From the NCBI RefSeq assembly GCF_009742705.1, contig NZ_WPCU01000007.1:51999-115998 (forward strand): DNA of 64,000 nucleotides, in the 5' to 3' direction. Made by a program: the position numbers and the translations under genes. The stretch's first letter is position 1; every line of letters starts with the position of its first letter. Under the pieces are notes generated by a model that saw only the letters and a program-made list of their open reading frames with translations, was not told where the DNA came from and did no database searches. Shown piece by piece: positions 22,879 to 23,754 of the stretch. This DNA is from Auraticoccus cholistanensis (GTDB taxonomy: Bacteria; Actinomycetota; Actinomycetes; Propionibacteriales; Propionibacteriaceae).

Positions 22879-23514
22879 TCAGGCGAGCTCGTTCAGCGTG
22901 ACCGCCACCGAGGTGGGGTCGAGCTCCTGCAGCACCACCAGCCGGGGGTCGGGGGTGGGCCGGACGTCGGGTTCGCGCGGGACCCCCGACAGCGGCTCGA
23001 GCCGCGGGTCGGCGAGCACGTCCTCGACCACCCGCCGGTCGCCGCCCAGCACCAGGTGCTGCAGCCGGTCGGCCCACGGCAGCAGCACGCGGGCCGCGTC
23101 CTCGACCGCCTCCGCCCCGGCCCTGGCGGCCTGGTTGGCGCGTCGGCGGGCGTAGCGCTGCTGGGACCAGCCGCCGGCCTTGGTCCTGCCCTGCACGTAG
23201 CCCGAGCCGACCTTGGAGGCGAGCAGCTGCTCGCCGGTCACCACGCCGGCGGCGTGCCCGCCGCGCCGGGCCAGCACCACCCCCAGCGTCCGGTCGACGG
23301 CGACGTGGCGCAGCAGGGCGGGCAGCGGGTCGGGCGCGGGCGTCCAGGGCAGGAACGGCACCCGGATGCCGGCCTCGGCGCCGTCGGGGGAGCGGAGCAG
23401 CACGGCGTCCTCGGTGGCGCGGACCTCGGGGTCGCCGTGCCGGGCGGCGAAGCGGTCGAGCCAGCCGGCGAGGCGGGAGCGGGGCACCCGGACGGTCCGC
23501 GAGGAGGAGCTCAA
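22879..23514 (-). CDS. acVLRF1 family peptidyl-tRNA hydrolase / release factor
   Basis: A 211-residue member of the actinobacterial Vms1-like release-factor family. The key region is GRTKAGGWSQQRYARRRANQA near residue 113, where the conserved Gln corresponds to the GGQ-like catalytic Gln of Vms1/ANKZF1. The family is thought to free nascent chains from peptidyl-tRNA on stalled large subunits. The frame opens at a TTG (23512-23514) without an obvious ribosome site; a GTG a few codons in is an alternative. Upstream on the same strand are a promoter, a 12-codon ORF and a large branched hairpin, described separately. Confidence 0.88.
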   Translation of the reverse strand: MSSSSRTVRVPRSRLAGWLDRFAARHGDPEVRATEDAVLLRSPDGAEAGIRVPFLPWTPAPDPLPALLRHVAVDRTLGVVLARRGGHAAGVVTGEQLLASKVGSGYVQGRTKAGGWSQQRYARRRANQAARAGAEAVEDAARVLLPWADRLQHLVLGGDRRVVEDVLADPRLEPLSGVPREPDVRPTPDPRLVVLQELDPTSVAVTLNELA

Positions 23515-23540
23515 CTCAGCGGACCAGGAGGAGGAAAGGA

Positions 23541-23609
23541 CAGACCCGCGAGCGGGTCACGTCCTGCTGGGCAGGAGGCGGCCGGTGGACTCCGGCGCTC
23601 GCGGGTCTG
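23541..23609 (-). terminator. Branched hairpin with pyrimidine tract upstream of acVLRF1 (possible attenuator)
   Basis: Perfect 14-bp arms at 23541-23554 and 23596-23609 (CAGACCCGCGAGCG and its complement) enclose two further hairpins: CCTGC-TGG-GCAGG at 23563-23575 and CCGG-TGGACT-CCGG at 23582-23595. On the minus strand the outer stem is followed by TCCTTTCCTCCTCC, a T/C-rich tract that suits termination. It lies between the short ORF at 23656-23694 and acVLRF1, so it could attenuate acVLRF1 or simply end the leader transcript. Confidence 0.55.
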
Positions 23610-23655
23610 GGTGACGACAGTGGATTGGCCGACTCCGAGCCGGCTCGGGCCGGAA

Positions 23656-23694
23656 TCAGCCGGCCGCCACCTCACATGTCCGACAGTCACTCAT
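23656..23694 (-). CDS. 12-residue leader peptide upstream of acVLRF1
   Basis: ATG to TGA encodes MSDCRTCEVAAG, with a CxxC pair. It has everything a translated ORF needs: a purine-rich site GGAGGTGG 8 nt before the ATG (minus strand 23703-23710) and a promoter beginning about 30 nt upstream. It is followed by a branched hairpin with terminator features and then acVLRF1. Translation is inferred from the signals only. Confidence 0.5.
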   Translation of the reverse strand: MSDCRTCEVAAG

Positions 23695-23725
23695 GAATCG
23701 AACCACCTCCCTTCCGTGTACGGCC

Positions 23726-23754
23726 ACGGTAGGCACGAGCACGCCCCGAATCAA
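23726..23754 (-). promoter_or_regulatory. Promoter for the acVLRF1 leader transcript
   Basis: On the minus strand TTGATT (23749-23754) and TACCGT (23726-23731) are separated by exactly 17 nt. The start would fall near 23719, giving a leader of about 25 nt before the 12-codon ORF. Confidence 0.55.

Follow-up and report, generated by a model that had tools for sequence, protein, structure and literature searches.

Ms_IGR-5 upstream of acVLRF1 in Auraticoccus cholistanensis: a conserved actinobacterial RNA whose short open reading frame shares its codons with a covarying fold

Introduction

Is the structured stretch in front of the acVLRF1 gene of Auraticoccus cholistanensis a leader of that gene, or a gene in its own right? 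In the 64,000 nucleotides of DNA analysed here (the window), acVLRF1 lies on the minus strand at 22879-23514 (PF18859, 138 bits, E 2e-40) and begins with a TTG codon at 23514. A preliminary description of the minus strand ahead of it listed a promoter, a Shine-Dalgarno (SD) sequence, a 12-codon open reading frame (ORF), a branched structure with a 14 bp stem and two inner hairpins, and a T/C tract leading to acVLRF1. From this layout it proposed a ribosome-responsive attenuator of acVLRF1, which might also respond to cysteine. Each of the elements is found at the position claimed. Missing from that list were the Rfam identity of the RNA, two helices named here P0 and P1, a pseudoknot, and the fact that the SD is unusually long.

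Identity, distribution and expression of the RNA

The minus-strand segment 23536-23719 matches Rfam family RF02471 (Ms_IGR-5, "Actinobacteria sRNA") with 83.1 bits against a gathering cut-off of 45. The match is complete, covering model positions 1-184 (E 7e-17 within the window), and the TTG of acVLRF1 lies 21 nt past its end, with the T/C tract between the branched structure and the gene. The promoter of the RNA (23726-23754, minus strand) is predicted to consist of a -35 element TTGATT (23749-23754), a 17 nt spacer and a -10 element TACCGT (23726-23731). A scan for a strict promoter consensus found no site. Among homologs, 90 of 105 have a TANNNT ahead of the 5' CAC at a distance of 13-14 nt (expected 0.8 per position), and 63 of these 90 have a TTG -35 element at a spacing of 17-18.

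Genomic searches with the RF02471 model gave matches in 250 of 395 genomes of the class, 57 of 296 genomes from across the phylum (Actinomycetota) and 26 of 97 genomes of the family, nearly always as one copy per genome; the 14 control genomes had none. A plasmid search with one of the RNAs (L011) as query returned no match. Phage records yielded one unverified scaffold, filed as 'Bacteriophage sp.' and derived from human faeces (L277, MT835602.1), with a copy at 2501-2676 scoring 76.9 bits; this copy is either phage-borne or part of a misfiled bacterial contig.

Published data from other Actinobacteria speak to the expression of the family. In S. avermitilis Ms_IGR-5 was mapped as a separate sRNA transcription unit which ends as its own unit (PMC8780764), and expression in S. 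lividans is supported by RNA-seq (PMC8079986). The M. smegmatis IGR-5 overlaps ncMSMEG15794c (PMC10454040). Ribosome-protected reads cover the RNA in M. abscessus and M. smegmatis, with the caution that footprints on sRNAs may reflect binding without elongation and not necessarily translation (PMC4974804). Literature searches on acVLRF1 and on the Rv0812 sRNA found nothing. As judged by homology and sequence, the minus strand at 23536-23719 is probably the gene of a free-standing structured sRNA with its own promoter.

An extended Shine-Dalgarno sequence and a short ORF

The SD at 23700-23715 (minus strand) is complementary to the 3' tail of 16S rRNA, and the segment is able to pair with the entire single-stranded tail. 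Its duplex with GGAUCACCUCCUUUCU has an energy of -26.6 kcal/mol, the strongest in the 64 kb window on either strand when sampled every 3 nt, and the median for homologs is -29.5 kcal/mol. The 16S tail that matches the SD (GGCTGGATCACCTCCTTTC) occurs once in the organism's own genome.

Behind the SD lies the ORF MSDCRTCEVAAG followed by a stop (23656-23694, minus strand), with an ATG start and 12 codons. Its conservation, like that of the structure, was counted in an alignment of 106 diverse homologs (alignment A1). An in-frame ATG, GTG or TTG stands 7-15 nt past GGAGG in 95-96 of the 106, and the in-frame stop falls just past a conserved GAGGTG. The 96 ORFs start with ATG (50), TTG (36) or GTG (10), and they are 12 codons long in 74 cases, 13 in eight, 14 in twelve and 10 in two. 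From the start region to GAGGTG this frame is open in all 106 homologs; the other two frames are open in 41 and 9. The stop position is occupied by TAG (72), TGA (25) or TAA (5), as against a single TGG (p 6e-18). Two homologs (L190 and L193) have the frame out of step with the structure, and even there the start and the stop share one frame.

Around ten divergent homologs have no ATG, GTG or TTG at the start position, and several of these have CTG, ATT, ATC or ATA there. Such starts occur in some lineages outside the class of the window (L171, L172, L176, L182 and L183 among other divergent homologs), with the frame open.

Fold and covariation

The RNA of the window folds with a minimum free energy (MFE) of -97.5 kcal/mol (z -3.97), and none of 200 shuffled sequences was equally stable. 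This MFE fold, computed without the alignment, recovers five helices, P1 to P5, all on the minus strand. P1 joins GGTGGCGGC (23663-23671, codons 8-11 of the ORF) to GTCGTCACC (23610-23618), and encloses the variable hairpin P2 together with a linker, AATCC, which is conserved in alignment A1 (23619-23662). P3 is the outer stem of the 3' domain, a perfect 14 bp helix formed by 23596-23609 and 23541-23554. Inside it are P4 (23581-23596), whose loop reads AGUCCA, and P5 (23562-23576), variable in both sequence and length across the alignment.

Two further pairings were drawn from the comparison of homologs. P0 connects the very 5' end of the RNA to the ORF: CACG at 23715-23718 pairs with TGTG at 23673-23676, within codons 7-8, and in the family this takes the form of a 5' CAC(G/A) paired with (C/U)GUG of these two codons. 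The pseudoknot is formed by GGAC of codons 5-6 (23678-23681) and GTCC in the loop of P4 (23587-23590).

When all column pairs were ranked by an APC-corrected G-test, P0 came first (z 40, 38 and 19), followed by P1 (33, 33 and 16), the outer 3' stem (29 and 27) and P4 (17). In P0 97.8% of cells are paired and three of four pairs changed on both sides; the corresponding figures are 96.6% and five of nine pairs for P1, and 87.4% and all eleven pairs for the main run of P3. Since one set of sequences supplied both the structure and the alignment, these counts of paired cells lean towards the structure, a bias which slid and shuffled controls lessen and do not remove. Covariation of the whole structure was 0.303 versus 0.129 for shuffled and 0.05-0.08 for slid controls, and P0 and P1 alone reached 0.426 versus 0.154 shuffled. 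Both partners of the pseudoknot are present in 94 of the 106 homologs and neither in nine, leaving three discordant (103 of 106 concordant; Fisher p 1.6e-10). Most homologs that lack GGAC have a compensating loop, for example CGACC/GGTCG, GGAT/ATCC or CTCGACC/GGTCGAG. Because the Fisher and z values ignore the relatedness of the sequences, the argument is carried by the compensatory substitutions and by the slid controls. Overall, strong covariation among the aligned sequences supports three long-range pairings, namely P0, P1 and the pseudoknot.

Other pairings were considered and rejected. A hairpin around the start codon, between GUCC at the end of the SD and GGAC of codons 5-6, can pair in most of the sequences but does not covary, and it is the pseudoknot with the 3' loop that covaries instead. 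The helix between the SD and the ORF end in the Rfam model (RF02471 positions 14-19 with 55-60) has no pair changed on both sides in 106 homologs and conflicts with P1; the structure model of RF02471 should be revised. The covarying helices that were found can all exist together in one fold, and P1 and P3 do not overlap. Among the covarying pairs there was no sign of an antiterminator or of a different pairing able to open the 3' domain, although rare pairings could be missed, and no conserved terminator/antiterminator switch was found among the homologs.

A reading frame without a conserved peptide

The conserved start, stop, frame and usual length of the ORF would be as expected if the RNA were the mRNA of a functional 12-residue peptide. 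The codons themselves make this reading very improbable: codons 2-4 vary freely and residues 2-4 are unconserved, RNA pairing accounts for codons 5-11, and the identity of codon 7 (Cys, Arg, Ser or Gly) changes in step with the 5' end of the RNA. The residue preceding Glu-Val is Arg in 50 homologs, Cys in 24, Ser in nine and others in the rest. Comparison of the homologs indicates that selection is for translation of the ORF, and not for a peptide.

The same variation decides the fate of the cysteine hypothesis, which was founded on the two Cys codons in the ORF of the window. Only six of the 96 homologous ORFs have two Cys codons and 53 have none. Moreover, codon 4 shows no conservation, and at codon 7 the choice between Cys, Arg and Ser is set by pairing with the 5' end of the RNA in P0. 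A cysteine-responsive attenuator is refuted by this codon variation, and we give it next to no credence.

Relation to acVLRF1 and other neighbours

Among the 97 family genomes, the RNA scored above the cut-off in 23 and acVLRF1 was present in 33. Both occur in 12 genomes, the RNA only in 11 and the protein only in 21. The two genes are adjacent in five of the 12 genomes that have both (5 of the 97); in the other seven they are apart or on different contigs, at distances such as ~490 kb (G382) and 69 kb (G331). A second sample comprised 110 acVLRF1 loci, 80 of them named and 30 from the family search, in which the RNA was located by profile search. It is present at 13 (one organism apparently twice), and the remaining 97 have no RNA within the fetched flank. 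Where present it is directly upstream on the same strand, except in L204, in which it is separated from the gene by ~1 kb, with other coding sequence in between. The named loci of this arrangement belong to Desertihabitans, Microlunatus, Friedmanniella and uncultured Propionibacteriaceae or relatives. In another member of the Propionibacteriaceae (L033) the RNA and pdxH point towards each other, and no acVLRF1 separates them.

Flanking genes of the RNA differ between lineages. At 85 loci the first downstream gene was called by a heuristic based on GC content by codon position. It runs in the same direction as the RNA at 48 loci and towards the RNA at 37. Among the co-directional genes 54 Pfam families are represented, none by more than five members, a diversity that holds whatever the precise start codons; the convergent ones include THAP4-like genes (9), pdxH (8) and ligA (3). 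A dedicated or general leader of acVLRF1, as the preliminary description had it, is rejected on this co-occurrence and synteny. By the same comparisons, the neighbourhood of RNA and acVLRF1 is a clade feature of about a dozen Propionibacteriaceae.

A narrower version would keep the RNA as a 5' leader of acVLRF1 in Propionibacteriaceae of the Desertihabitans, Microlunatus and Friedmanniella type, with ribosome occupancy of the ORF controlling read-through into the gene beyond the 3' domain. The two are neighbours on the same strand in about a dozen related species, with gaps of mostly ~15-110 nt, and no promoter or TANNNT was found between the RNA and the acVLRF1 TTG in the window. In addition, the 12 family genomes with both genes compare with ~8 expected from the margins. 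However, the RNA is conserved across the phylum without acVLRF1 and most acVLRF1 genes lack the RNA, the 3' domain has no alternative pairing found to open it, and the S. avermitilis RNA ends as a unit of its own, as described above. At two of the clade's loci (L201 and L260) the gap between the RNA and acVLRF1 holds TAGCCT-N6-ATG just before the gene. This leaderless-type promoter arrangement suggests that acVLRF1 would have its own transcription start there. On balance this clade-specific leader appears unlikely.

Proposed mechanism

The reading that we favour, and hold to be rather probable from the sequence comparisons, is that of a free-standing, translated and pseudoknotted sRNA that can be either translated or folded but not both at once, and that is not tied to acVLRF1. 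The two states would exclude each other because the same bases serve as codons and as parts of the fold. The strong SD, whose complementarity takes in all of the single-stranded 16S tail, would load a ribosome. Once it initiates, this ribosome would need to open the pseudoknot together with P0 and P1, and it would finish at the stop codon just past the P1 arm. When ribosomes are scarce or slow the fold would form, so that ribosome traffic would set the folded share of the RNA. The output might pass through stability, ribosome occupancy or pairing in trans. Given the variety of neighbouring genes, the RNA is more likely to act in trans or on itself than to control a single downstream gene. In one group within the Propionibacteriaceae acVLRF1 has ended up directly behind the RNA, where the gene may use read-through.

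Part of the original proposal is retained in this scheme. The comparison with relatives that had been suggested found the short ORF conserved and the 23541/23609 stem covarying, and since translation would melt the fold, the RNA can be considered ribosome-responsive in principle; the dedicated link to acVLRF1 is the part that did not stand. An extension to the whole phylum, in which Ms_IGR-5 is an Actinomycetota-wide ribosome sensor, with the folded share of the RNA reflecting the supply of ribosomes or their elongation and governing an action in trans, is offered only tentatively.

Alternatively, the RNA could be mainly a trans base-pairing sRNA to which the ORF is secondary, with unpaired segments such as the AATCC linker binding mRNAs and ribosome loading tuning its life span. 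It is a free-standing transcript with conserved unpaired segments, and it was first detected and named as an sRNA by Li et al. (2013), as cited in PMC10454040. However, its most conserved elements are those of ribosome binding and the ORF, with clear selection on frame and stop, and we regard a secondary role for the ORF as rather unlikely.

Comparison with known systems and implications

The Rfam entry RF02471 (M. smegmatis IGR-5/ncMSMEG15794c) has the same layout, in which the SD is followed by the ORF region, a hairpin and a branched 3' domain. It differs in being filed as an sRNA with the SD paired to the ORF end, and the ORF, P0, P1 and pseudoknot are absent from the printed model. In the dual-function sRNAs SgrS and RNAIII, the ORF encodes a functional peptide and is largely apart from the regulatory fold. 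Ms_IGR-5 is likewise a small RNA with a short ORF, here with translation deduced from sequence comparison, but in it conserved long-range pairings are made by the codons themselves, and the sequence of the peptide is not conserved; comparison of homologs finds selection on both ORF and fold. The leader-peptide attenuators of Actinobacteria (leuL, trpL and thrL) are similar in having a short translated ORF followed by strong hairpins (PMC8079986). Unlike these, Ms_IGR-5 has no conserved downstream gene or regulatory codons, no terminator/antiterminator was found, and its ORF has its own SD and is not leaderless.

The Ms_IGR-5 family is known. No description of its ORF, P0, P1 or pseudoknot was found in the literature reached, which excluded the original report of Li et al. 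(2013), and priority for these elements is not certain. The RNA is highly conserved in Streptomyces, mycobacteria and their relatives, and stands in Rfam as an sRNA without an assigned function. Its comparative anatomy, with an ORF, complementarity to the 16S tail and three covarying pairings made by codons, removes a tempting story about acVLRF1 and cysteine and would make of it a directly testable ribosome-linked RNA.
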